From positions 1 to 29,881 of IMG/VR virus record IMGVR_UViG_3300006013_000012: a DNA stretch of 29,881 nucleotides. One strand, written 5' to 3'. The DNA is from a virus. Shown piece by piece: positions 1-28,605 of this stretch (within the stretch, counting starts at the first letter, position 1; every line of letters begins with the position of its first letter). The notes beneath the pieces are model-generated. The model did no database searches, had not been told where the DNA came from, and worked only from the letters and a program-made list of their open reading frames with translations. The position numbers and the translations under genes were made by a program.

Positions 1-363
1 AAGGTCTAATGCTACAGGAATATCTGTTGGTACTTTTTTATAATTGCCATCAATTGAACTTGGAGAACTCATATAAAAAATTTCACCTTCTCTATTATTA
101 GGTAACCATATATAATCTCCTTCATTCATATAGATTTTTCTTTTTTCAAATGCCATCCAATAATTCAATCCTTCAGTTATTCCATTTGTTGGATAAACAT
201 TAAATTCTTTTAAATTTATAACAGGAGATAACCAATCTTTTATTTTTGTTTTATAAAGTTCCATAGCTTCAAGGTCAGGAATTACTGTATTAACCATACC
301 TTTTATTTCCTTTAAAGTAAAACTCTTTAAAATTCTTCTATTTTCTATTAACCAAGTAATCAT
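1..363 (-). CDS. Partial N-terminal part of a probable PLP-dependent aminotransferase-fold protein
   Basis: The gene starts with ATG at 363 and runs off the left edge after 121 codons, so only the N-terminal part is visible. Around residues 54-69 it reads FNVYPTNGITEGLNYW, which resembles the loop of fold-type I PLP aminotransferases where a glycine-rich Ser/Thr-Glu segment begins the cofactor phosphate site. Farther on there are GDYIWLP and a stretch ending in PVALDL, also compatible with that fold. The catalytic lysine would lie outside the window, so the assignment is tentative. Its start overlaps the stop of the dioxygenase gene in an ATGA, so it is the fourth gene of the minus-strand operon. 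An aminotransferase would fit an amino-sugar role next to an epimerase, but that is inference. Confidence 0.45.
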   Translation of the reverse strand, partial: MITWLIENRRILKSFTLKEIKGMVNTVIPDLEAMELYKTKIKDWLSPVINLKEFNVYPTNGITEGLNYWMAFEKRKIYMNEGDYIWLPNNREGEIFYMSSPSSIDGNYKKVPTDIPVALDL

Positions 364-1124
364 ATCTTTGAATAATCAAATGCTATTCTATGTAGCATTC
401 TTTTATCCATATTTTCAAATTCCCAACGTTTATGAATAGTTAACCATTGTTCACTTATAACAATATCACCATCTTCCCAATAATGGTCATATCTAAATCT
501 ATCTTGTAAAACGTGTTCTTTTAATTCTTCATACACATCTTTTTCTATACCACCAAATATCTGATTAAATGGAAAATATAAACCAGTCTTCCCAGCAGCA
601 TTTGTATATACTAAATCAAAAGGTCTATCTATTGAGTGGTGCTCTTTAAAAAAAGTAGATGTAGTATAATTACCTTTCTTATAACCTAATGTCAATTTTA
701 CATCTCTTATTTTTTCTTTTAGAGATGTAGGTAAACTCTCATAACTTGCTACATTATCTATCCAACTTGTCTTACTACCTTTTGAAAATTCTTTAGCATA
801 TAACCAAATTAAAGGCATTCTACTTTCATTACTTGCTTGGTTGGCGTGCCAATCTAATGCACTTGTATGACCAAATAAACCTTCTTCACCGTGTTCATTT
901 TTTTGACCTGTAACTCTTAATATACCATCTGATAAATGAATATGTTTGGTTCGGTCACTAGTATATTTTTGATACTCACCTATTTTTGAACAAACATCTA
1001 ATTCATCTTGTTCAGATAATTTTTGATTTCTTATAACAACAACTAAATCAGATAAAATTGCTTTACCAATTTCTTTAACTTGGTTTTCGGTTGCTTCTTT
1101 TAAATCTATATCAAAACTTTTCAA
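360..1124 (-). CDS. TauD/TfdA-like Fe(II)/2-oxoglutarate dioxygenase with altered HxD motif
   Basis: This 254-residue protein has the layout and length of TauD/TfdA-family dioxygenases, which use Fe(II), O2 and 2-oxoglutarate to hydroxylate small molecules. The family's first metal-binding motif, HxD, is normally found as WHTD; here residues 92-95 read WHAN, so the aspartate is replaced by Asn95. The distal histidine is probably His231 (in LTIHKRW), and the 2-oxoglutarate-binding arginine is probably Arg246 (in LHRIAFDY). The fold assignment is fairly secure, but normal iron chemistry is less certain because of the Asn. The gene overlaps both neighbours by ATGA (1121-1124 and 360-363), implying translational coupling with the epimerase and the aminotransferase-like gene. 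The substrate is unknown. Confidence 0.75.
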   Translation of the reverse strand: MKSFDIDLKEATENQVKEIGKAILSDLVVVIRNQKLSEQDELDVCSKIGEYQKYTSDRTKHIHLSDGILRVTGQKNEHGEEGLFGHTSALDWHANQASNESRMPLIWLYAKEFSKGSKTSWIDNVASYESLPTSLKEKIRDVKLTLGYKKGNYTTSTFFKEHHSIDRPFDLVYTNAAGKTGLYFPFNQIFGGIEKDVYEELKEHVLQDRFRYDHYWEDGDIVISEQWLTIHKRWEFENMDKRMLHRIAFDYSKI

Positions 1125-1888
1125 TTTGTTCTCCTATTATCTTCAATATATTTCTTTAATTCATATTGTGGTTTCCAACCGTAACTAGTCATTACTTCTA
1201 TATTTGCTTTGTTATCAAGTCTTTCAGTATCACCAGCAATTCTTTTTTCAGTAGTAATTCCAAAGTGGTCCATTATATCAGTTAACTTATGTGTAATGCC
1301 TGTTCCTATATCTATTACACCCGTCCTTTCATCAAATGCTGAAATTTGGCTTTGTCTTAATAAAGATTCAATCGCTGAACAAATATCATAGACGTGTATA
1401 AAATCTCTACTATGATTTGTATTAATATATGGCACATTATTTTTTAATATTCTAGGTATCAACATTTGTTCTCTTGCACCTGGTCCATATACAGTAGTAA
1501 ATCTCATACCTAAACTATTTTTATTAGCAATTTGTTCCATACTATACTTACTCATTGCATAAGGATTTCTCCAAGGTTCATATGCTGTACTTGAACTTGC
1601 ATACAAAATTCTTGTATCTTTAAAATGGTCAAATAGTCTTTGACTTACAATTACATTTTGTTTCCAATAGTCTGTAGGATTTTCAAAACTTTGTCTGACA
1701 CCAGATAGACCTGCTAGATGAATAACTACATCTACATTATAATTTAAATCACAGGTAAGTAATTCATTTGGGAATAATACATCACCTGAATTGCGGTCTA
1801 AACCAATTACGTTAAAACGTTTTTCTGATAACCATACTGAAAGATTTTTACCAATAAATCCATCACTACCTGTTAATAATATGTTCAT
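1121..1888 (-). CDS. NAD-dependent epimerase/dehydratase (extended SDR), short form
   Basis: This is an extended short-chain dehydrogenase, the family of UDP- and GDP-sugar epimerases and dehydratases. Residues 6-13 (TGSDGFIG) form the Rossmann GxxGxxG NAD(P)-binding loop after an initial beta strand. VVIHLAG at 54-60 is the conserved second nucleotide-binding segment. The catalytic Tyr110 and Lys114 lie in NPYAMSK, with the serine run at 98-100 supplying the third catalytic residue. RDFIHVYD farther on is typical of the sugar-epimerase branch. At 255 residues it is shorter than the usual 300-350, mostly in the C-terminal sugar-binding half, but it ends at a clean stop and overlaps the next gene by ATGA, so it appears intact. 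The likely substrate is a nucleotide sugar; which one cannot be told. Confidence 0.85.
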   Translation of the reverse strand: MNILLTGSDGFIGKNLSVWLSEKRFNVIGLDRNSGDVLFPNELLTCDLNYNVDVVIHLAGLSGVRQSFENPTDYWKQNVIVSQRLFDHFKDTRILYASSSTAYEPWRNPYAMSKYSMEQIANKNSLGMRFTTVYGPGAREQMLIPRILKNNVPYINTNHSRDFIHVYDICSAIESLLRQSQISAFDERTGVIDIGTGITHKLTDIMDHFGITTEKRIAGDTERLDNKANIEVMTSYGWKPQYELKKYIEDNRRTN

Positions 1889-2457
1889 ATTCCTATCACC
1901 ATATACCTATCAAATTTATCCAATTTTAAAGTACCCCTATATAATATTTTTTCTAATCTCAAACTCTTCTCAAATTCTATTACACTATTATGACAATTAA
2001 TATGCTCTCTAATAGAAAAATAATTATTTGATTGTAATATAACTAACGACCCTTTCTTTCTTCTTTTTAAAAATTCATCTATTAAATACTGACCAAGATG
2101 TTCGCAAGAAGTACACATAACTATATCAAATTTTTTAATATCATAATATTTTATATCAGCGTCTGTAAATATAATATCTTTACCTTTATAAAGCTTATTC
2201 CCAATCTTTTCACACATTGGGTCTTTATCAAAAGAAACAACCTCACCTGTAGTATATTCTTTCATCTTATTTGCTAAATGCCCATACCAACCAGCCGCTA
2301 CAACTACAGAAGGATTGTTAAAAAATGTAAAGTATTGTTTTGACTTTTCTATAAGCCAATCTTTACTTTTCTCTTGATTTTCGTTTAGTGAATTAACAAT
2401 AGACTTAACTAGTCTATCTGTGGTGAAGTTGTCAATCACTTTTAATATTCTGTCCAT
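1885..2457 (-). CDS. SAM-dependent class I methyltransferase
   Basis: The 190-residue protein shows a class I methyltransferase core: a glycine-containing motif I at 51-59 (VVVAAGWYG), an acidic motif II strand end at VVSFDKDP (73-80), a motif IV-like strand FDIVMCTSCEHL (110-121), and a later strand KGSLVILQSN (135-144). The N-terminal 50 residues are helical and of unknown role. It is the first gene of the minus-strand operon and is read from the late promoter at 2483-2490. Its stop overlaps the epimerase start in ATGA at 1885-1888. Position beside sugar genes suggests methylation of a sugar or small metabolite rather than DNA, and no DNA methylase signature such as DPPY is present. The substrate is unknown. 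Confidence 0.7.
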   Translation of the reverse strand: MDRILKVIDNFTTDRLVKSIVNSLNENQEKSKDWLIEKSKQYFTFFNNPSVVVAAGWYGHLANKMKEYTTGEVVSFDKDPMCEKIGNKLYKGKDIIFTDADIKYYDIKKFDIVMCTSCEHLGQYLIDEFLKRRKKGSLVILQSNNYFSIREHINCHNSVIEFEKSLRLEKILYRGTLKLDKFDRYMVIGI

Positions 2458-2464
2458 AATCTTT

Positions 2465-2472
2465 AATAAATA
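2465..2472 (+). promoter_or_regulatory. Late-promoter-like element for the plus-strand radical SAM/glycosyltransferase operon
   Basis: AATAAATA differs from the T4 late octamer TATAAATA at one position. It is 17 bases upstream of the first ATG of the plus-strand operon (2490), so a transcript starting about 7 bases after it would have a short leader. No other candidate promoter precedes the six-gene run. The weaker match makes the call less certain than for the opposing element. Confidence 0.5.
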
Positions 2473-2489
2473 GTACTAGTATTATTTAT
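2466..2489. repeat. Near-perfect 24-base inverted repeat between divergent operons
   Basis: The centre is the palindrome TACTAGTA (2474-2481). After one mismatched pair (2473/2482), seven bases on the left (2466-2472) pair perfectly with seven on the right (2483-2489). The arms are the two opposing late-promoter elements, so the symmetry may come from two promoters back to back rather than from an operator or hairpin. Confidence 0.75.
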
Positions 2490-2490
2490 A
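2483..2490 (-). promoter_or_regulatory. T4-type late promoter for the minus-strand tailoring operon
   Basis: The plus strand reads TATTTATA, which is a perfect TATAAATA late -10 octamer on the minus strand. It sits 25 bases before the methyltransferase start at 2457, leaving a leader of roughly 19 nucleotides. It forms one arm of an inverted repeat with the opposing plus-strand element at 2465-2472. Confidence 0.7.
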
Positions 2491-3368
2491 TGAGTATGAA
2501 AAGAGTTATTTACAGTATATACATTGATGTGCCTGCGAAAGAACATTATGGCAAGTCAAAATTTATAAACGACACAGCAAAAAGGGCAAGTATAACCGTT
2601 AATGCATTTAAAAAACATTATACAAAATTAATTAAGTCTAAACGCCAATACGCTGACGCTATAGGTGTGCCTTTTATAATGTATGAATATAATAATCATT
2701 ATCAAAAGTATGAGAAATTTTTCCTTGATAATTATCCAGAAATAACAGGTTATGAAATTGTAAATTTTTACAAGATACATTTACTTTATGAACTAGCAAA
2801 AAAGTATGATGAAATTTTGTATTTAGATTTTGACGCTATACCTGTAACTAAAGATTCCTTTTTTGATATATGGGATATACAAAACTATATTGCCGTTTAT
2901 AATAACAATACTATGATTAATAAAATGATGTTACGTTTAGATGAAATTAAACACGGTATTAGAAGTCCATCAGCAAAATATTATAATGCTCAAGCTTTAC
3001 TTATTGCTAAAGGATGTGACCCTAATAATGATGTTATCAATACTGGTATCATTGGTGCGTCAAAAAAACAAATCCTTAAATTAGATTTCTTTGGTGACTT
3101 TAAAGGCACACTAGATTTAATGACAAAATTAAGATATGATAAAACTGGTTTATATCCTCAAAATATTGTTGATATGTTTAGATATGATAATGAAACAATC
3201 TTTGCATATAAAATAAAAATGAATAATGTTAATATTCAATGGTTAGATAGACGTTGGCATTATTTTTTTGATACACAACATTTTATACCAAAAGAAACCA
3301 AAATAGTACACGCTGTCTGTAAACAATTTGATGTTGTATGGAGGTATAATGAAAAACATAATCTATAG
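2490..3368 (+). CDS. Glycosyltransferase-like protein with DxD motif (copy 1)
   Basis: This 292-residue protein has the features of a GT-A-type glycosyltransferase: an N-terminal strand KRVIYSIYID, a helix with KRQYADAIG, the conserved YKIHLLYELAKKYDEILYL segment, and the metal- and nucleotide-sugar-binding DFD at residues 113-115 (LDFDAIP). It resembles the next gene along its whole length, so the two are tandem paralogues. The start is either ATG 2490 or ATG 2496 (second Met of MSMKR); no clear ribosome-binding site separates them. It is the first gene of the plus-strand island, 32 bases from the divergent methyltransferase. Donor and acceptor are unknown. A host-surface, virion or DNA-base acceptor are all possible; nothing in the sequence decides. 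Confidence 0.7.
   Translation: MSMKRVIYSIYIDVPAKEHYGKSKFINDTAKRASITVNAFKKHYTKLIKSKRQYADAIGVPFIMYEYNNHYQKYEKFFLDNYPEITGYEIVNFYKIHLLYELAKKYDEILYLDFDAIPVTKDSFFDIWDIQNYIAVYNNNTMINKMMLRLDEIKHGIRSPSAKYYNAQALLIAKGCDPNNDVINTGIIGASKKQILKLDFFGDFKGTLDLMTKLRYDKTGLYPQNIVDMFRYDNETIFAYKIKMNNVNIQWLDRRWHYFFDTQHFIPKETKIVHAVCKQFDVVWRYNEKHNL
3340..3344 (+). promoter_or_regulatory. Strong ribosome-binding site fixing the start at 3349
   Basis: GGAGG lies five bases upstream of ATG 3349, inside the 3' end of the preceding gene. It argues for initiation at 3349 rather than at the in-frame ATG 3328. Confidence 0.8.
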
Positions 3369-4209
3369 TATCTACATAGAAAATAACGAACCTAATTTAA
3401 ATGAAAAACACCAATTCACTAAAACACAATTAGCAAAACACTATCAAAAATTAATAGATGTTAAGAAAGAATATGCTAAGCATTGTAATGCTGAATACAG
3501 ACTTTATGAAAATGATACTTATTGGCAAAAATTTAAAAAGAAATTCAATGGGTACCAATTTGATATCATCAATCTATACAAGATACATCTATGGGAAGAA
3601 TTAGGTAAGGAATATGATAATGTTCTTTACTTTGATTTTGATGTAGTACCAAATACAACTGAATCCTTTTTTGAAAAATTTGATATGAATAAAATTTGTG
3701 TTCACGCTGTCAATGCAACTAAAGAAAATATATGGAGTACAAGTGCTTTAAAACGTTATAAGAAAAAGATAAACACATATGAAGAAATAGTTAGTAACTT
3801 TGATGGTTATAGTATGTACGTCAAAGCGATTGCTAAAAAATCAATGTTAGCATTAGATAACAATTTTAATACAGATTATCTAATAGTAAATACAGCAATA
3901 TTAGGTGGCAATTCAAATGCTACAAAACAATTAAAATATACAGAAAAATTAGATGAACTTTTAAATATACTAAATGAAGCAAAAGAAGAAAAACTATTTG
4001 GAGAGAATATATCAAAACTGTTCTTTCCAAACAATGAAGTCTTTTTCCAATATCTATTGGATAAATATAAGATAAAATGGTTTAACATACCTTATGAATG
4101 GCATACATATTTAATGTCTAAAAACAAAATTACAAAAGATATTAAAAATTCTAAAATGATACATTTAATCAATAAAAGATTTGAGGAACTATGGGAGATA
4201 TTAAAATGA
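3349..4209 (+). CDS. Glycosyltransferase-like protein with DxD motif (copy 2)
   Basis: From ATG 3349 this protein has 286 residues and is a clear paralogue of the preceding gene: both open with IIYSIYI/VIYSIYI, share the NFYKIHL/NLYKIHLWEEL segment, and have a DFD metal motif (residues 96-98 here, in YFDFDVVP). It is therefore assigned to the same GT-A-like glycosyltransferase group. An upstream in-frame ATG at 3328 exists but lacks a ribosome-binding site, whereas 3349 has GGAGG. The gene overlaps copy 1 by 20 bases and its stop overlaps the next start as ATGA (4206-4209). The C-terminal halves of the two copies diverge more than the N-terminal halves, which suggests different acceptors; that is inference. 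Confidence 0.7.
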   Translation: MKNIIYSIYIENNEPNLNEKHQFTKTQLAKHYQKLIDVKKEYAKHCNAEYRLYENDTYWQKFKKKFNGYQFDIINLYKIHLWEELGKEYDNVLYFDFDVVPNTTESFFEKFDMNKICVHAVNATKENIWSTSALKRYKKKINTYEEIVSNFDGYSMYVKAIAKKSMLALDNNFNTDYLIVNTAILGGNSNATKQLKYTEKLDELLNILNEAKEEKLFGENISKLFFPNNEVFFQYLLDKYKIKWFNIPYEWHTYLMSKNKITKDIKNSKMIHLINKRFEELWEILK

Positions 4210-5330
4210 GCTGGACATTTCCTATTGATTTAAAACTTGATATTACAACTAGATGTAATGCTGGGTGTCCTCAATGTCATAGAACAAACTTAACTGGATT
4301 AAAAGCACACGAATGGTTACCAGATATTGTTTGGTCTTTAAACCAATTTAAACAAGCCTTTCCTGAAAAAATTACTAAACACATTTATAATTTTAATATT
4401 TGTGGGACGTGGGGTGACCCTTTAACAAATAATGATTTATTAGATATAACAAGATATATCAGACAAGTAAATCCAGAATCACATATTTCTATCAATACAA
4501 ACGGTTCATTAAGAAATGAAGATTGGTGGTGGGAATTTGGAGCAATAGGAGGTAAAAACCTACACGTTGTTTTTGCTGTTGAAGGCACCACACAAAAAAT
4601 GCACGAAAGATATAGGCAGTTTACTTTCTTGGATAAAATTTTAAAAAATATGGAGATGTTATCTAACACTAAAGCAAGAATACGAGTTGATACTTTAGTA
4701 TGGAAACATAATGAAAATCATTTAGATGAAATTGAAAAATTAGTTATGGATCACGGAGCAACCAAACATAACAGAATTTTAACTGACCGTTGGGAAGGCC
4801 GTAAAGAAATGACTTTTTTTACTGGAAAGGAAGCTACAGTTTTAGGAAAAGCTGGTGTTGATTTTTCAAATGAAGAAAAAACATATAACAAACGTGAAGC
4901 TGATTGTTTTACAGATGATGAAGGAACAGAAAAAAAAATTGATAATTTTACTAAACAAACAACAAAACTAACAGTACTAGATGGTATAACACTTAACAAA
5001 ATAAGAAAAGAAAAAGAAATAATAGATATAACTTGCAAATGGAAAAAAGCAAATAAACTTGAAATTGAATCAAGTGGTCAAGTTTTACCTTGTTGTTATT
5101 TTTCTAATCCATATTTTTTAGATGAACACAATCCTTCTAACGTAAGTAATTTTATGGTACATCCAATTATGAAAGAATATGAAAAATATAAAAAAGAACT
5201 TAATATTTTTACTGCTAATTTAATAGATATAATAAATCACAAATGGTATACAGAAATATTACCTAATAGTTGGAATACTGCTAATCCTGTTTTGCAATGT
5301 CAAAGACACTGTGGAAAATGTAATGTATAA
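4206..5330 (+). CDS. Radical SAM protein with C-terminal SPASM-like cysteine domain
   Basis: The CxxxCxxC motif that holds the radical SAM 4Fe-4S cluster is at Cys17, Cys21 and Cys24 (RCNAGCPQC). Residues 65-72 (ICGTWGDP) occupy the place of the usual GGEP SAM-binding motif. The C-terminal part carries further cysteines at 277, 296, 297, 365, 369 and 372, ending CQRHCGKC, the layout of a SPASM auxiliary cluster domain. Such enzymes modify peptides or sugars by radical chemistry. ATG 4206 is chosen over the in-frame ATG 4191 because GGGAG at 4194-4198 is well placed and the start forms an ATGA overlap with the preceding gene. The protein has 374 residues. Substrate unknown; no precursor peptide lies nearby. 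Confidence 0.8.
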   Translation: MSWTFPIDLKLDITTRCNAGCPQCHRTNLTGLKAHEWLPDIVWSLNQFKQAFPEKITKHIYNFNICGTWGDPLTNNDLLDITRYIRQVNPESHISINTNGSLRNEDWWWEFGAIGGKNLHVVFAVEGTTQKMHERYRQFTFLDKILKNMEMLSNTKARIRVDTLVWKHNENHLDEIEKLVMDHGATKHNRILTDRWEGRKEMTFFTGKEATVLGKAGVDFSNEEKTYNKREADCFTDDEGTEKKIDNFTKQTTKLTVLDGITLNKIRKEKEIIDITCKWKKANKLEIESSGQVLPCCYFSNPYFLDEHNPSNVSNFMVHPIMKEYEKYKKELNIFTANLIDIINHKWYTEILPNSWNTANPVLQCQRHCGKCNV

Positions 5331-6459
5331 ATCAGAAATAAAAGAATTCTACGATAAGAACAAAGCCTATTGTCATTATCCTTTTAGAGAAATATATAAC
5401 AATAGTAGCGGACATTATAAACTATGTTGCCACGCTAATGTACATCCAGATACTAGGAAATATACAACTCAAAATATAACACCATTTAAATATTTTCGTT
5501 CTAAAGAAATGGAAGGAATAAGAAACAAAATGCTATCAGGAGAAAAAATGTCCTCTTGCCAAGTATGTTATCAAATGGAAGAGGCAAGTGGTGAATCATA
5601 TAGAACTAAAGATGTAAAAAAAATAAGTGGCATTGAATTAGAACCTGCAAGTATTGGATTGAAATTAAGAGTACACGGATCATATTGTAATTTACAATGT
5701 TATATGTGCCATCCACATAATTCATCTGGAAGAAGAAATGAAATGAAAGCAGTATATGGTAAAGAAGTATTAAAAAAATGGATGCCAAATTTCAAAGGAC
5801 TTAATTATACTCAATGGAATGATATATTAAAAGATATTTTAGATAATATTCATTTAGTAGAATATATAGTTGTTACAGGTGGTGAACCATTACTATTACC
5901 TAAACAATGGGAAATGATTGAAAAAATACCAGAAGAACACGCAAAACATATTCATTTAGCATATGATACTAATTTAACAGAATTAACATATAAAAACCAT
6001 TCTATCTTTGACGTAGCAAAAAAATTTAAGGAAGTTGATTTAAGGGCGTCTTGCGACCATTATGGTAGAAAATTAGAATGGATAAGATATCCAATAAACA
6101 GAAAAAGATTTGAATCTAATTTAATTGAAGCTAAAGATTTAATAAAATTTATTAATTGTGCTCCATCTATTTTAAACATTTATGATTTAGATAAAATTTA
6201 TGATTACTATAAACAACATTTTGGTCTACGTACACAATTTACAAGTATAGTAAGAACACCTCATATGTTATCTATAAAAAATGTGAAAGATAAAGATATA
6301 TTATTAAAAAAATATGAAAAGTTAGAATGGTTTAATTATATTAAATCTGAATTATCAATGCCAATATATGATAAAGACAATATAAAAATGAAAAAATATT
6401 GTGATGATTTATCTAAACATAGAAACTTTAATTGGAGAGAACTTTGGAATGAATTCTAG
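5323..6459 (+). CDS. Twitch-domain radical SAM protein
   Basis: The 378-residue protein begins with a cysteine-containing half-SPASM (Twitch) region: Cys17, Cys35-Cys36, Cys79 and Cys82 (CQVCYQM). The radical SAM core follows, with CxxxCxxC at Cys122, Cys126 and Cys129 (SYCNLQCYMC) and a classical GGEP motif at 186-189 (VVTGGEPLLLP). An N-terminal Twitch domain placed before the SAM core matches the N-terminal-Twitch radical SAM group. A GTG at 5311 is in frame, but ATG 5323 is preferred and gives an 8-base overlap with the upstream gene. Translational coupling with the SPASM enzyme suggests the two act in one pathway. The reaction is unknown. Confidence 0.8.
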   Translation: MYKSEIKEFYDKNKAYCHYPFREIYNNSSGHYKLCCHANVHPDTRKYTTQNITPFKYFRSKEMEGIRNKMLSGEKMSSCQVCYQMEEASGESYRTKDVKKISGIELEPASIGLKLRVHGSYCNLQCYMCHPHNSSGRRNEMKAVYGKEVLKKWMPNFKGLNYTQWNDILKDILDNIHLVEYIVVTGGEPLLLPKQWEMIEKIPEEHAKHIHLAYDTNLTELTYKNHSIFDVAKKFKEVDLRASCDHYGRKLEWIRYPINRKRFESNLIEAKDLIKFINCAPSILNIYDLDKIYDYYKQHFGLRTQFTSIVRTPHMLSIKNVKDKDILLKKYEKLEWFNYIKSELSMPIYDKDNIKMKKYCDDLSKHRNFNWRELWNEF

Positions 6460-6499
6460 GGGTTATAAACGCTGGAAGTTAACAGGAGATATGATTGTA

Positions 6500-7186
6500 A
6501 TGAATTCTAAAACATACAATTTTTCAAATAGGTTTATTAATATAGACTCTACTCATAGGTGTCCTTTAGAATGCCCTAAATGTCTGCGTCAAGCAATACG
6601 AAGACGAGGTTATAAAGTACCTGGAAGAGATATGCCGTGGAATGATTTTATAAAAATTGCTAAATACTTTAAAAAGGGATTAATTTTTTGCGGTCAAATA
6701 TCAGACCCTACATTTAATCCTAAACTTATTAAAAAATTAAAATATTGTAAAGAAAATAAGATTAAAGCTATACTTAATACTGCCGCTTCACAAAGACCTA
6801 TAGAGTGGTATAAAGAAGCGTTTGAAGCAAATAAAAATGCTTTATGGATTTTTGGTGTAGATGGTCTACCAAAAGATAGTCACAAATATAGAATTCATCA
6901 AGATGGTGAAAAACTATTTAAAGTTATGAAAATGGGAGCCAAACTTGGTTTGTTTATACGTTGGCAATATATTGTTTTTAACTACAATGAAAATAATATA
7001 GAAGAAGCAAGACAAATGGCAAAATCTAATGGTATTCATTTTGATGTAATCCATTCAGGACGTTGGGGTACCAAAGACCAATATAAACCTAAAAACCCAA
7101 ACAACTATTTAAATAGTAAGGGTGAATCACTTAATAAAGATTATGCAAAACATTATGCGGAGTATTTTAAAAATGAAAAAAATTAA
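6500..7186 (+). CDS. Radical SAM core protein lacking its SPASM domain (split gene, part 1)
   Basis: Residues 21-28 (CPLECPKC) are a radical SAM CxxxCxxC motif close to the N-terminus; the strand-helix repeats of the core follow. ATG 6500 is chosen because AGGAG lies at 6484-6488, but ATG 6449 (overlapping the previous gene by 11 bases) and ATG 6491 are in frame and possible. From 6500 it has 228 residues, short for this type: it stops before the C-terminal cysteine domain present in the gene at 4206. That missing domain begins immediately, in the +1 frame, in the next gene. The junction lies in a run of seven A (7176-7182). It may be a natural split enzyme, a frameshifted gene or a sequencing indel. 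Confidence 0.7.
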   Translation: MNSKTYNFSNRFINIDSTHRCPLECPKCLRQAIRRRGYKVPGRDMPWNDFIKIAKYFKKGLIFCGQISDPTFNPKLIKKLKYCKENKIKAILNTAASQRPIEWYKEAFEANKNALWIFGVDGLPKDSHKYRIHQDGEKLFKVMKMGAKLGLFIRWQYIVFNYNENNIEEARQMAKSNGIHFDVIHSGRWGTKDQYKPKNPNNYLNSKGESLNKDYAKHYAEYFKNEKN

Positions 7187-8273
7187 TGCAAAATGTTTAG
7201 CATTTAAAGAACTTTCTTATACAGCAGAAGGTTATTTAATACCTTGTTGTTGGTGTGATAATCCTAAAAGTTGGATACAGCCGCAAATTGCAAGATTTAA
7301 AAAAGAACATTTAAAACTTGAAAACAATGAAAAAGTTGAAGACATTATCTATAGTAAAGAATGGAAAGATTTTTTTAAAGAGTTAGATACAAATCCATCA
7401 ATAACTTGTCAAAGATATTGTGGTGTATCTCTAAATTATAGTGTTAATAAAAGACCAGAACCAGGAAGTCCATTTAGAAAATGGATATCTTACCGCAAAG
7501 AACAAAAAATTAAAATAGGTTGTGTTTACTTTGAAGGTAAATATTCACTTGATTATGTTGAAAAACTTTATAATGGATTAAAAAAATATTGTACACTACC
7601 ATTTGAATTCATTTGTTATAGTGATAATCCAAATGTTAAAGCAGATGTTGTTATTCCTTTACCTAAAGATAGTAAAATAAAACGTCATTGGCACAAACTA
7701 TCTTTCTTTAATCCTGAATTTGCAAACCAAGAAGAAGGAGATGAAATTATTATTATGGACATTGACCAAATTATTATGAGTAATATAGATGATATAATAG
7801 GTTGGCCTATAGCAGATAATGAATTAGTATCTTATGATAAATGGTGGGGCGGACCAAAACCAAAACTTCAAGGTGGTTTTTATAAATTTAAATCTGGACA
7901 ATGTAAATTTATATGGGATACCTTTATAGAAAATCCAGAAAAATGGCAATTACATTATTATAATACAAATCAAGTACATTACAAATATTTTGGTGAACAA
8001 AATTTTGTTGAAGATATTACAACTAAAAATAATATAGAAATAACATTAATTAATGGTAAATGGATTGGTAAATATACATTGGACAAACAACAGAATTTAG
8101 AAAACAATGTAGTGTATTGTAAAAAATTTGATGAGGATTATATGATACTTGATGAACCAAATCCTAATTTAAAGATTATACACTTTGCTGGTCCAGAAAC
8201 TGCTATACACAATTGCAAAGCAGATTGGATTAAGTCTTATTGGAATCTTCCCAAAGACCAAGAAATACCTTAA
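7173..8273 (+). CDS. SPASM-like cysteine domain fused to a glycosyltransferase domain (split gene, part 2)
   Basis: From ATG 7173 the protein has 366 residues in two parts. Residues 1-90 carry Cys8, Cys25-Cys26, Cys28, Cys79 and Cys83 in a pattern (LIPCCWCDNP, then CQRYCG) that matches the SPASM-like C-terminus of the radical SAM gene at 4206. Residues from about 113 form a GT-A-like glycosyltransferase domain: a strand KIGCVYFEG, a loop FICYSDNPN, and the DxD motif DID at 196-198 in IIIMDIDQI. GGAG at 7159-7162 gives it its own ribosome-binding site, and it overlaps the preceding gene by 14 bases. Joined to that gene, it would be a radical SAM/SPASM/glycosyltransferase multidomain enzyme. 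It overlaps the convergent gene by 44 bases at its 3' end. Confidence 0.7.
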   Translation: MKKINAKCLAFKELSYTAEGYLIPCCWCDNPKSWIQPQIARFKKEHLKLENNEKVEDIIYSKEWKDFFKELDTNPSITCQRYCGVSLNYSVNKRPEPGSPFRKWISYRKEQKIKIGCVYFEGKYSLDYVEKLYNGLKKYCTLPFEFICYSDNPNVKADVVIPLPKDSKIKRHWHKLSFFNPEFANQEEGDEIIIMDIDQIIMSNIDDIIGWPIADNELVSYDKWWGGPKPKLQGGFYKFKSGQCKFIWDTFIENPEKWQLHYYNTNQVHYKYFGEQNFVEDITTKNNIEITLINGKWIGKYTLDKQQNLENNVVYCKKFDEDYMILDEPNPNLKIIHFAGPETAIHNCKADWIKSYWNLPKDQEIP

Positions 8274-9921: not shown

Positions 9922-10800
9922 CTATGTCGCACTACCAACAATTGTTTTTTGTAGGACTCCTGCTGAATTGTAAATATTTAATGTTGATGTAGCTGTAAAA
10001 ATACTTGAAGTTGCATATGCAGTTGAACCATCTAAAATTACAGTACCACTAGTATCAGGAAATTCAATTAAGTTATCTTGTGTTGGTTCTACTATGGTAA
10101 ATATAGTTTCATCATCACTTTCCGTATTTCCTTCAAACGCAATCTTTCTACCTTTGATAACAGGTAAACCATCAAAAAGTATTAAATTATCAGGATGAGT
10201 TGTCCTAAAACCTGCACCAGCGGCATAACCTGTACTAGGATTCATTTCTATATATCCAGCTTTTATAACACCATCAACTTCTAAGCTATCATCAATTTTA
10301 ATTTCACTAGAATCTGTAGATGAAATTACATTACCAACTATTTGAATTGTTCCTAACACTTGAGTAGTACCTGTACTAGTTATATTAGCAGCAGAAATAT
10401 TTCCAATTACTGTAACATTTCCAGTTACCGCAATATTTCCACCAACACCTATTATATCACCAGTAACCGTTAAGTCATTTGGAATAGTTACATCATTTGC
10501 TAAACCAACTGTTAATGTATCTGGTGAAGAAACAATTGCTGTTGTTTGATTTGCTGTACCTAATGCAGTTAATGTTTGTCCTGAACCAACAGCTTGTACA
10601 GATGAATCAACATCTGAAATAAACCAACCAGCGGCTGCTGTTACCACAGAATTAATTTCATTTACAGCGCCTATAACACTTGTTGCGGTTAATGAAGAGT
10701 CTAGTGTACCTATATCTCCAAAATCATTTGCCGCTAATTCGTTAAATTGCGTTCTAAATGTTTCTAATGTATCTGTTTGTGCTATATTTCTTGCAGCCAT
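9922..10800 (-). CDS. Tail fibre-like protein with beta-repeat shaft
   Basis: This 292-residue protein has an N-terminal segment (AQTDTLETFRTQFNELAAN) of the type used to attach fibres to the baseplate, followed from about residue 100 by repeats of the form xVTGNVTVIGNISAANIT, in which hydrophobic residues alternate with Gly and Asn, typical of a trimeric beta-helical shaft. The C-terminal part includes an EIKIDDSLEVDGVI segment and ends in short strands, with no recognisable peptidase or chaperone domain. The start overlaps the stop of the upstream coiled-coil gene by one base (TAATG), so the two are co-translated. It probably helps form a host-recognition fibre. Confidence 0.75.
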   Translation of the reverse strand: MAARNIAQTDTLETFRTQFNELAANDFGDIGTLDSSLTATSVIGAVNEINSVVTAAAGWFISDVDSSVQAVGSGQTLTALGTANQTTAIVSSPDTLTVGLANDVTIPNDLTVTGDIIGVGGNIAVTGNVTVIGNISAANITSTGTTQVLGTIQIVGNVISSTDSSEIKIDDSLEVDGVIKAGYIEMNPSTGYAAGAGFRTTHPDNLILFDGLPVIKGRKIAFEGNTESDDETIFTIVEPTQDNLIEFPDTSGTVILDGSTAYATSSIFTATSTLNIYNSAGVLQKTIVGSAT

Positions 10801-11024
10801 TATTTTTTAATTACCTCTTGTATTAAATCTTTAATCTCTCTCAATTCTTTTTTTAAATTATTTATCTCTCTAACTACATTTATCATTTCATCTTTAGTTT
10901 CTCTTTTTTGTATTTGTCCTTGCATATACATTTCATACTCACTTGATTTTTCTCTTATAATAGCATTAGAATAAACATCTCTTACTAAACCTGTATAATT
11001 TTTTACTTTTAAATATTCAGCCAT
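10800..11024 (-). CDS. Small coiled-coil protein between tail genes
   Basis: The 74-residue protein has a basic, mixed N-terminus and a long C-terminal helix from about residue 40 (DEMINVVREINNLKKELREI) with heptad-like spacing of Ile, Leu and Val, indicating a coiled coil. It is linked to both neighbours: one base separates its start from the stop of the 2086-residue gene, and its stop overlaps the fibre gene start by one base. The position suggests an adaptor or assembly factor for the fibres, but no homologue is recognised with confidence. Confidence 0.75.
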   Translation of the reverse strand: MAEYLKVKNYTGLVRDVYSNAIIREKSSEYEMYMQGQIQKRETKDEMINVVREINNLKKELREIKDLIQEVIKK

Positions 11025-11025
11025 A

Positions 11026-14000
11026 TTATACCGCCAAAGCTATCGCCCTTAAATCTTTTAATCTAGGTGGATAAGATGAAATTAATCCATTCATCACACA
11101 CTTAACTTGGAAAGATGTAAATTCTGGAAGAGTTGAAGCACTAAATTGATATTCCTTAAAGTCATCATCTAATACTGTATCACCAACAGATGGTGTAATA
11201 TTTACGTCTGGACTACCATCTGTATTAAAATATGTCCAAGGTATATCACCTAATCTTCTTGTTTCTTCTCCTCCACTTAATCTGTAAAGAAATTTAATTG
11301 TTGAAGTTGACCTTACACTTGCCCCAACTCTTATATCTATAGCAGTTGAAGGATTTGCCAAACTAACTGCTCTTGTCATATAAGAACCAGCAGAAGATAG
11401 TCCTGAAATAGCAGTATCATCTTCATAGTCAACTTTATTAGAAATTTTTGCTACAACTTTTGAATTTAAAACTGGAGCAATTTCCATTGTTAAAGTTGTT
11501 CCAGAAGTTGTAAAGTCAACGACTGGAGTTAATTTTTTACCATCTTTTTTAACAGATACTAAATGAACACTTGAAGGAGTTGTACCTAAAGTAAATGCAG
11601 TTGCTGATCCATCTCCAGTAAATGTACTAGTAGATAAAACAGTAGGTTTATTTAATCTGTTTGTAATACAGAATACGTGTAATCTTTGAACATCAATAAC
11701 AGGTGATAAATTTTCATTGTCCGAAATCATTGTACAATTAACAAGCATTGATTTATAATTTGTTAAATTTGACATTTCATTTGTTTGATTAATTGTACTT
11801 GCTACCATTTGTGGAGCAGTAAAATACACATTGTCTCCAAGTGTAACCGATTTTTCAGATGAAGCACCAGCCAAAGCAAATTCTGATTCAGAACCATCTA
11901 CAGATTTACCTGTTGTTGTTCTAATAGCAGTTGTTATACTTGTATCTGGATGAATAACGTGTCCTAATTGCAATTGCAATACATCAAATTGTCTATTTTG
12001 AGTTGCTGTTACCGCATTACTTCCAACATCACCAGTTGCTATTGCTGTTCCAACTGAAGTTAAATCATAACTATCTAAAGATATATTTTTAATTGCTGTG
12101 TAAGTTCCATTAATTTCTGAATGGTCAAGACCATTATATGTTCCTGAAGCTATTCCTGCAATGGTTACATTGTTAGTTGTGCTGTGCATTCCGTGACTCT
12201 TATGATAAACTCTTATATCACTAGAACCATTAAATGTTCTAATTGGATTATTCTTTAAAGCTTTAACAGGTAAATCAGCATTTGCTAATGTAACCATTGC
12301 ATAAGTACCAGTTGTAAAGACTGCCTTTTTCAAATTGAAAGTTAAATCTTCCATTTGTTCAGCATTCCAAGTTCTATTATTTGCAGATTTAAATAGAACA
12401 CCCATAATTGGTTGTTCAGATACCGTTCTATCTGATCCTATTTGTGTCCCACCTAAACGAGAAACATACACCGTATAATCCTGTGAGTCTGAATATAATA
12501 CTAAACAATATTCTGTTTCTTCTTTTAAATAAACAGGTGAAGGGAATGTAAATGTAGTTGCAGTTGTTCCGTTTATACTTGTAGTTATTGCACTAGGATT
12601 TAACCATTTTCTTCCAAAAGGTAATACCTGTGTTCCAGGATAACCATTAACCATATTTCTAATTTCTGCTTTAACAGGTATTGTTGTTGATTTTGTAGCA
12701 AAATAAACATCCAAACTAGTAATAAAACAACCATCAGCAGTATCAATCACAAATGATTGTGCTAATGGATCTCCACTTCTTCTTGGAGCTGGTGCTGGAG
12801 GAGTAAATCTGGATGTATTTGTAATTGTTCTTGTTTCATTAACTTCATCTCTAACCGTTTCAGTTTCTCTTGTGGAAATATTAACACCTTGCATTGTGTT
12901 TAACAAACCTTTTGCGTTATAATCTGCTTCGGCAGCTGTAGCAATATTTGTTGTATCCATAGAATTAGTAGATGAACTTGTTAATCTAAAAACTCTTTTA
13001 CCTGTTCTCCATCTTGGATTTGCATCCACATTTGGATCAGGTATTACAAATGAACCTCTAACATATCCATTTGTATCTGTTACAACATTTCCTGCAAGTG
13101 AACCACCATCTGGAGTTACATATGAAATAATAGCCACATTATCAAAATAAGGATAAACTCTTGTATTTGGTCTTAAACCATATCCTTCAAAGGTTACATT
13201 TCTACTTCTTATAAATGGAACAAAATTAACACTTACAACCCTATCACCTAAACTATGTGTAACTGTTCTAGGAATTACACTTGTTCTTATTCCACCTCTT
13301 GTTTGTATTGAATCTGTTTGTGAAACCTGAGTTCTTCCTTCAGTCCAAGACCTTGGATTTCCAGTCCAATTAGTTTGCCATTCATTCCAAGCTGTACCCA
13401 AAGGAAGTTCAGTTAAATCACCTGTATTTTCTATTCCTAAATCTCTAGCTAATTGGTCAAAACTTCCTGCCAAATCAACTGTAATTTCAGGTACTCTTTC
13501 TGTTTCTCTCCATTCATCAACTGCTGGAGTTAATTCTACTGTACCAATCCAATTAAATATCATAAATGGATTTAAATTTTCTGTTTTAGTTGCGTAAGGA
13601 TTTTGAATTACAGATGTTTCTGTATATGGTAAAGAAATCAAATCTCCAGTTTTTGTATAATTAGCTGCTATTCTATCAGTTGCTAAAATTGCTGAACCAT
13701 CTTCATCTACTTCTTCCAAAGTAGCTGCATCCTGATTAAACATTGGTCGTACTTCACCACGTTCCATATCCATTGCACACTTATAATCAAAATTTCTAAC
13801 ATCACCAATATTATGTCCAGTAAAATTATCTACAACAAAACCATTTTTGAATCTATCTAAACCATCAGCATCCTGTATTTGCATTGATTGAGCATTTGCT
13901 TCCAATAATGATAATGATGTATAGTATTCCACATTTGATATTCTTCTTTCTAAATGTCCAATATCTCTCATTGTATATCTTCGATTATCAATTTTTTCTA

Positions 14001-27933: not shown

Positions 27934-27941
27934 TATTTATA
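27934..27941 (-). promoter_or_regulatory. T4-type late promoter embedded in a stop codon
   Basis: A perfect TATAAATA on the minus strand. It includes the TAA stop (27937-27939) of the oxygenase gene upstream and drives the gene that starts at 27904. It argues against the ATG at 27928 as the true start. Confidence 0.75.
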
Positions 27942-28605
27942 AGACTTTTGGTATAATAGTTTTTTGAGGTTTAAAGTTAAAATCAAATGCAAGAGTAATA
28001 CGTTCCTTATTTCCTAATTGAGTATCTGTATAATGTGGGACGCAGCTAGGAAATAATATTATTTGTCCTACCTCATTAGGTAGTTTAAGGGTGCGAGGAT
28101 TATTAAGTTGGTCAACCGGATTTATATAATAAGTGGCAGTATTCTCACATTGAATACAAATATGTCCACTTAAATAAGCAAAGGGTGCAATCGAATGAAT
28201 ATGTGCTTTAATACGTTCTCCTTTCCTCATAACATTGGCCCATCCGCTTAGATTAAAATCCGAAAGACCTTTAATTTTTATTTCATTTAAAAATCTTGAA
28301 TGAAAATCTAAAATAATAGGTTTTAATTTTTTCATTTCAGGTTCTAACCAAGAAAAAATATTAAAATGTTTATGTCTTGAAGTTAAGCTATTTTTGCCTA
28401 ATCCTGTATAACCATCTACTTCCCCCTCCACGCTTGATGTAGTGGCAGGAGGGAATTTTTCTAATATCTCTTTTTCTTTTCTTAAAATAATTTTAGCTAT
28501 CTCTTTAAAATCTACATTGGAAATAAGTTCGTGCCCAAGATGATAATGCCATTGAGGAGCAAAAGAAGTTTGGGGCGGTTCACTTTTGGTTTGGATTATA
28601 TTCAT
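27937..28605 (-). CDS. 2OG-Fe(II) oxygenase family protein
   Basis: The 222-residue protein matches the putative 2OG-Fe(II) oxygenase group common in T4-type marine phages. The metal region is GWANVMRKGERIKAHIHSIA, with His135 and His137 in place of a plain HxD, followed by the FAYLSGHICIQ strand, then GQIILFPSCVPHYTDTQ with the distal His191, and the cosubstrate-binding Arg202 in KERITLAFDFNF. The N-terminal 80 residues have no known motif. These oxygenases hydroxylate proteins or small molecules, but the phage substrates are mostly unknown. No late octamer precedes it; the upstream 126 bases also hold the divergent gene's promoter. Confidence 0.8.
   Translation of the reverse strand: MNIIQTKSEPPQTSFAPQWHYHLGHELISNVDFKEIAKIILRKEKEILEKFPPATTSSVEGEVDGYTGLGKNSLTSRHKHFNIFSWLEPEMKKLKPIILDFHSRFLNEIKIKGLSDFNLSGWANVMRKGERIKAHIHSIAPFAYLSGHICIQCENTATYYINPVDQLNNPRTLKLPNEVGQIILFPSCVPHYTDTQLGNKERITLAFDFNFKPQKTIIPKVL

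Follow-up and report, generated by a model that had tools for sequence, protein, structure and literature searches.

Introduction

The host recognition cluster named in pelagimyophages lies beside VrlC in the structural region and holds mostly GT8 glycosyltransferases, with mention of cassettes of radical S-adenosylmethionine (SAM) enzymes (PMC7029224; this paper and those below are cited from part of their text). In the Campylobacter phages CP220 and CPt10, five radical SAM genes belong to a module that is interchangeable (PMC2853527), a plasmid block of the bacterium Brachyspira hyodysenteriae with adjacent radical SAM, glycosyltransferase and epimerase genes has been proposed for lipooligosaccharide or glycosylation (PMC4267127), a T4-like marine genome with 12 radical SAM genes has been reported (PMC5332604), and radical SAM and glycosyltransferase genes are listed as auxiliary genes of marine phages (PMC7150976). 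Baltic viruses hold 261 instances of an ahbD-like gene, although PF13186 and PF04055 occurred together on only three contigs (PMC9301287). The role of the additional auxiliary clusters in radical SAM enzymes is still largely enigmatic (PMC10470005). Here we analyze the viral record IMGVR_UViG_3300006013_000012 (the window, a whole stretch of 29,881 bases), in which six overlapping plus-strand genes, named GTa, GTb, rS1, NTwi, rS2 and SPx=GTc, fill positions 2490-8273 (the island; Table 1).

The island is a variant of a kind of phage cassette already reported, so that an undescribed system, as the first-pass annotation of the window had proposed, is too strong a term for it; its unexpected part is a separately encoded auxiliary domain. 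Like the pelagimyophage cluster it lies beside VrlC with glycosyltransferase and radical SAM genes; unlike the account in the cited part of PMC7029224, it presents a six-gene unit, an apparently split enzyme, a fusion of SPASM domain and glycosyltransferase, and a putative late promoter. Like the CP220/CPt10 module it combines a radical SAM block with sugar transfer: in the CP220 record (L333), two genes with nucleotide-diphospho-sugar transferase domains (10286-11862) directly follow the exchangeable radical SAM module, although the cited part of PMC2853527 names an amidinotransferase with the module, not sugar transferases. Unlike rS2 of the island, the profile-matching radical SAM enzymes of CP220 have 326-342 residues, long enough to be fused. 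The Brachyspira block is likened by gene content, not by protein relation. PqqE, anSME, SuiB and BlsE share with the enzymes studied here the CX3CX2C core, the auxiliary cysteines and, as seen in a fused homologue, the SPASM/twitch fold, whereas here the auxiliary domain has a gene of its own, which in the window is fused to a glycosyltransferase.

We interpret the island, with a probability of about 0.58, as a cassette with which a T4-like pelagimyophage would tailor glycans, expressed late and including at least one radical SAM enzyme that would work as two subunits. We consider it quite probable that there is a class of two-subunit radical SAM enzymes in marine T4-like phages whose auxiliary SPASM/twitch domain is a protein of its own, that the subunits can be separate or joined, change their order and pass as a pair from genome to genome, and that the auxiliary one can be joined to a partner such as a glycosyltransferase.

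A radical SAM enzyme that looks cut in two

The third core of the island, rS2, ends without an auxiliary domain, and its SPASM-like domain opens the next gene, where it is joined to a glycosyltransferase; rS1 (P0007) has its auxiliary domain on the same chain. This arrangement had been missed by the first-pass annotation of the window. In a more distant contig (L007), SPASM lies on the core's own chain and the glycosyltransferase is separate. The last two island genes thus resemble a single radical SAM enzyme divided between two proteins, which is the most unusual feature of the island and would surprise a specialist.

We ran core and SPASM profiles over the stop-to-stop frames of 238 sequences and obtained 336 cores (201 distinct), 142 of the distinct ones with a SPASM within 400 nucleotides and 59 without one there. 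The 142 divide about evenly into 76 split pairs (SPASM in another frame) and 66 fused ones (same frame). The SPASM frame of the split pairs is shifted by +1 in 36 and by +2 in 37, and the remaining 3 are in frame with a stop between; 75 of the 76 have a start codon of their own (ATG in 68), and the commonest overlap of core and SPASM is 4 nucleotides (24/76). After clustering at 80%, the SPASM of rS2-type cores was fused in 22 representatives, split in 30, split with a long frame in 5, encoded upstream in 3 and not found in 3; for rS1-type cores it was fused in 16, split in 20, encoded upstream in 1 and not found in 16. The label for a long SPASM frame (split_SP=GT, n=5) denotes frame length only, one of its members (L112) having no glycosyltransferase match there, and the window's own pair (L009) is labeled plain split, as that locus ends short. 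Distinct SPASM frames in 330 sequences were stand-alone in 127 cases (116 downstream of a core, 7 upstream, 4 apart), core-fused in 85, glycosyltransferase-fused in 9 and at contig ends in 4. On a tree of 97 of the 116 core representatives (the 19 without a detected SPASM were left out), the fused or separate state changes at least 10 times, with at least 4 changes forced by well-supported branches and many branches weak.

The cysteine motifs are kept in both parts. CX3CX2C is present in P0007, P0008 and P0009 and in 91/91 viral core representatives that have a SPASM, the auxiliary-cluster cysteines are invariant in the alignments of P0007 relatives and of P0010 relatives, and a regular expression for auxiliary cysteines is satisfied in 71/90 and 36/37 stand-alone domains. 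Among NTwi frames above 80 bits, examined as a control for splitting, 119 were full, 4 lay at contig ends and 0 were partial; therefore splitting is not general to every radical SAM protein of these phages. SPASM frames shorter than 180 residues made up 11 of 29 in 13 viral records versus 4 among the 150 SPASM matches listed for 150 bacterial genomes (the phylum of the Hyphomicrobiales genome described below), these being by-eye counts with E-value limits of 0.01 and 1e-6, respectively, and the viral records having been picked for holding these genes.

The cultured Pelagibacter phage Mosig EXVC030M carries several island homologues in rearranged order. Because this isolate has the same split pair, the split is not a metagenome artefact: Mosig_00084 is a core of 211 residues (rS2 profile, 235 bits) and overlaps Mosig_00085, which has 112 residues and matches the SPx profile at 89 bits and Pfam SPASM at 15.4 bits, below the cut-off. 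Annotation pipelines overlook this small subunit, which in Mosig is annotated as 'hypothetical'. The Mosig operon (L332, 2991-13306) also has nitroreductase, aminotransferase and carbamoyltransferase genes and further MoaA-like genes.

The pair also occurs outside phages. Two contigs of Hyphomicrobiales metagenome-assembled genomes (MAGs; L239 and L240, 9954-10897) share a single homologous stretch, 945 nucleotides at 80.5% identity, and this is the rS2+SPx pair; the flanks do not match each other and are cellular-looking where read. It is as if the phage-type pair had been acquired as a unit at unrelated sites. Apart from these, the rS2 family is nearly absent from cells: it was found in 2/199 genomes of the MAG's family and 1/385 of its class, the hits being those same MAGs, and a cellular scan of genome contigs gave 17 loci, among which many were phage-like or remote relatives. 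Viral contigs yielded 552 stretches with rS2 relatives, of which 80 were kept. dN (nonsynonymous) was lower than dS (synonymous divergence) in all pairs with a computable value; rS2 of the MAG pair gave no dS.

An AlphaFold model of the fused homologue from L007 (predicted local distance difference test, pLDDT, 84.5) is least confident internally at residues 201-210, between core and twitch domain (mean pLDDT 44), and this stretch coincides with the split site in other phages.

We found no description of a separately encoded SPASM subunit of a radical SAM enzyme in the open-licence literature searched. The sequence evidence for a separately encoded auxiliary domain that has been repeatedly split, fused and re-fused is strong, and we suggest that the two subunits form one enzyme. 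A natural separate auxiliary subunit would let the role of the cluster be probed by adding or omitting the subunit instead of mutating cysteines.

Gene content and conservation of the island

The first-pass annotation had described a gapless island of six frames, with three radical SAM cores, SPASM/twitch domains and three glycosyltransferase domains, facing away from an epimerase, methyltransferase and dioxygenase operon, and this description holds: all junctions overlap (likely true starts at 2490, 3349, 4191 or 4206, 5323, 6449 and 7173), and the methyltransferase-like, epimerase and TauD genes occupy the minus strand at 360-2457. P0007 (34.9 bits) and P0008 (38.8 bits) exceed the PF04055 cut-off of 29.5, and P0009 (28.9 bits) is slightly under it with an intact CX3CX2C. 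P0008 matches the N_Twi_rSAM model NF033640 at 241.2 bits (cut-off 170), and P0007 matches SPASM PF13186 at 19.0 bits, below the 21.5 cut-off. P0005 is called GT8-like only, because its PF01501 match, at 19.3 bits, is weak and under the 24.3 cut-off; its paralogue P0006 has no match to that family, and the C-terminal part of P0010 matches the glycosyltransferase phrog_1962 (E 5e-16). A PDB sequence search gave no matches for GTa or NTwi and, for rS1, a weak match to tetraether synthase as the sole one.

Table 1. Features of the window discussed in the text
Feature	Position	Strand	Basis or remark
TauD-family dioxygenase (P0002)	360-1124	-	library match
Nucleotide-sugar epimerase/dehydratase (P0003)	1121-1888	-	library matches
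Methyltransferase-like protein (P0004), regular neighbor of GTa	1885-2457	-	named from sequence; no library match
Divergent promoter gap, 32 bases	2458-2489		TATAAATA on - (2483-2490, 1 base into the GTa start codon); AATAAATA on + (2465-2472)
GTa, GT8-like glycosyltransferase (P0005), DFD motif	2490-3368	+	PF01501, weak match
GTb, GTa paralogue (P0006), DFD motif	3349-4209	+	29% identity to P0005
rS1, radical SAM protein with fused C-terminal SPASM/twitch domain (P0007)	4191-5330	+	PF04055, alignment
NTwi, N-terminal-twitch radical SAM protein (P0008)	5323-6459	+	NF033640
rS2, radical SAM core subunit without auxiliary domain (P0009)	6449-7186	+	PF04055, cysteine motif
SPx=GTc (P0010), detached SPASM/twitch domain (~7173-7475) fused to glycosyltransferase (~7509-8270)	7173-8273	+	phrog_1962, alignments
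VrlC baseplate protein (P0016), 2086 residues	11026-17286	-	54% identity to Mosig_00100 'putative VrlC'

The earlier claim that there is no room for a precursor peptide also stands, no open frame having been found between the six genes. A classical cluster for a ribosomally synthesized and post-translationally modified peptide was considered and rejected, with no precursor frame among the six genes and no common homologous flank beside the MAG pairs, although a precursor might lie at a distance.

The order from the methyltransferase-like gene through GTa, GTb, rS1, NTwi and rS2 to SPx=GTc is kept in other pelagimyophage contigs, with variants. Identity runs from 56% to 91% across the genes held by L006, which ends inside the last gene, and from 45% to 61% in L007, with 31% in the SPASM part. 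Because independent contigs repeat the set in the same order, with identities of 45-90%, the association is more than chance. NTwi is missing from L001-L004 and rS1 from L087, L183 and L184, and L008 starts inside rS1. The first-pass annotation would have given up its proposal had the two arms, the island and the divergent operon, never co-occurred elsewhere; they do co-occur in other contigs. The epimerase is found in either arm (window 1121-1888, L007 15392-16105, L183 11013-11741); its gene changes place among phages, sitting in the methyltransferase operon of some and in the tail operon of others. Double-glycosyltransferase frames of ~1.7 kb, which combine a GTa- or GTb-type domain with a GTa-type domain, occur in L017, L018, L019, L022, L025, L026, L029, L070, L076 and L079, often directly after the methyltransferase-like gene.

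Promoter motifs of the two arms

Of the divergent gaps that separate the methyltransferase-like gene from GTa or NTwi, 18 are distinct; 15 of these have TATAAATA on the minus strand and 13 have NATAAATA on the plus strand. In cyanophage S-PM2, NATAAATA is given as the late promoter (PMC2984593, cited from part of the text). Because these motifs recur in the divergent gaps, both arms of the island look late-expressed. In the window, NATAAATA lies within 40 nucleotides upstream of 6/25 gene starts versus 0.14 expected at uniform density, and over the window as a whole it is not enriched. In Mosig it lies upstream of 12/42 starts versus 0.37 expected; the genes concerned include gp8, gp25, a tail fibre gene and the gene that opens the radical SAM operon. 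The late-promoter motif in pelagimyophages is our reading, not that of PMC7029224.

A possible glycan-tailoring cassette and its alternatives

In the pathway that we propose, the epimerase and other sugar genes would supply or alter a nucleotide sugar, the three GT-A glycosyltransferases would put residues on an acceptor, and the three radical SAM enzymes with their auxiliary clusters would use radical chemistry to alter a sugar or the glycan as it grows, an order of steps that is itself presumptive; the methyltransferase-like and TauD enzymes may add further decoration. rS2 would be the subunit with the SAM-cleaving cluster, and the SPASM/twitch subunit, joined to GTc, would bring the auxiliary cluster in trans. 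The substrate would be a sugar, and the glycan product would presumably end on the virion or the host envelope. If this is true, a single complex would carry out both radical chemistry and sugar transfer where the auxiliary subunit is joined to a glycosyltransferase, and a late radical SAM and glycosyltransferase cassette beside the tail genes of SAR11 viruses points to unexamined virion or envelope glycan chemistry. The cultured Mosig EXVC030M makes the cassette testable.

The link to sugar transfer drawn by the first-pass annotation is supported. The SPASM–glycosyltransferase fusion, seen in 9 distinct frames, links glycosyl transfer in these phages with this radical SAM enzyme at least; sugar enzymes lie within 6 kb of radical SAM cores, including an epimerase, a carbamoyltransferase at 45/275 loci and a DegT aminotransferase at 31/275; and in a less biased set of rS2 representatives, read over 5 kb on both sides, a glycosyltransferase is near in 17/28.

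Several observations weigh against a glycan-tailoring cassette. No glycosyltransferase was detected within 5 kb of the other 11/28 representatives, a count made with the three island profiles only, which could miss others; because of these loci, and because the pair stands alone in two MAGs, the enzyme need not serve a glycosyltransferase. In a Foldseek search with the L007 model, which has the SPASM/twitch fold, BlsE came first by E-value, a point in favor of a sugar, with DesII, BtrN, SuiB, anSME and SkfB among the matches, but the Z-scores of SuiB, MoaA, BlsE and DesII are tied within 1. We take the substrates to be a peptide for SuiB, GTP for MoaA and sugars for BlsE and DesII (a sugar-nucleoside for BlsE), and because these four tie, the fold does not pick the substrate. 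The SPx=GTc model is of too low a quality to support conclusions (pLDDT 54.7); its Foldseek matches are blood-group and alpha-1,3-galactosyl transferases of the GT6 type. Finally, late-promoter prediction failed in pelagimyophages according to the cited part of PMC7029224.

A narrower reading concerns the target of the cassette. PMC7029224 proposes, in the part cited, that pelagimyophage glycosyltransferases alter host lipopolysaccharide to exclude competing phages, and argues from the abundance of GT8 and from how rare restriction systems are in SAR11; this would be a sub-case of the glycan-tailoring explanation that differs in the target. To exclude competitors, the genes would presumably have to be expressed early, whereas the motif at the island is of late type, and we regard this variant as having some chance of being right while still unlikely.

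Instead of a sugar, the radical SAM enzymes might modify a protein, most simply a co-encoded tail fibre or baseplate protein, with the glycosyltransferases glycosylating the same protein. The nearest folds include the peptide-modifying SuiB, anSME and SkfB, the island abuts tail genes and has the late-promoter motif in common with them, and the CP220 radical SAM/sugar-transferase module is likewise near baseplate genes. However, no conserved short precursor frame was found in the island or in common to the two MAG loci, and the fusion partner of SPASM is a glycosyltransferase, not a peptide-recognition domain. We regard a protein target as rather improbable.

We give slightly less credence still to the possibility that separately acquired cassettes have been pooled in a hypervariable region, with the radical SAM enzymes having nothing to do with the glycosyltransferases and acting on nucleotides, cofactors or tRNA. 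Such pooling would fit the lone travel of the rS2+SPx pair, the representatives without a glycosyltransferase nearby and the coming and going of NTwi among contigs, but adjacency is repeated over the range of identities given above, the SPASM–glycosyltransferase fusion recurs, and the island is a single gapless transcription unit with conserved divergent promoters.

The overlap of frames at the junction might suggest that the split is only apparent, caused by faulty assembly or bridged by a programmed frameshift between core and SPASM. This is very improbable and was rejected, since +1 and +2 shifts are equally common, three in-frame pairs have a stop between, the SPASM frames have their own start codons, SPASM precedes the core in 7/127 cases and is sometimes fused to a glycosyltransferase, and the isolate Mosig has the same split.

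Genomic setting

Because the baseplate J region of the window is 75.8% identical to that of Mosig and its 2086-residue protein P0016 resembles Mosig VrlC (Table 1), the virus is, judging from its genes, of T4-like pelagimyophage type, a marine phage whose hosts would be abundant ocean bacteria. The island adjoins VrlC within the structural region, the position of the pelagimyophage host recognition cluster, whose gp14 side would lie beyond the window; its six genes have their backs to the methyltransferase-like/epimerase/TauD operon and are convergent with the tail genes. P0012 (8747-9910), a tail protein beside the island, has ~80 residues (roughly 180-263) without counterpart in its relatives from L003, L007 and Mosig, and these resemble an inserted, exchangeable domain. 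At the far end of the structural region, the window encodes a 2-oxoglutarate-Fe(II) (2OG-Fe(II)) oxygenase (phrog_81) at 27937-28605.

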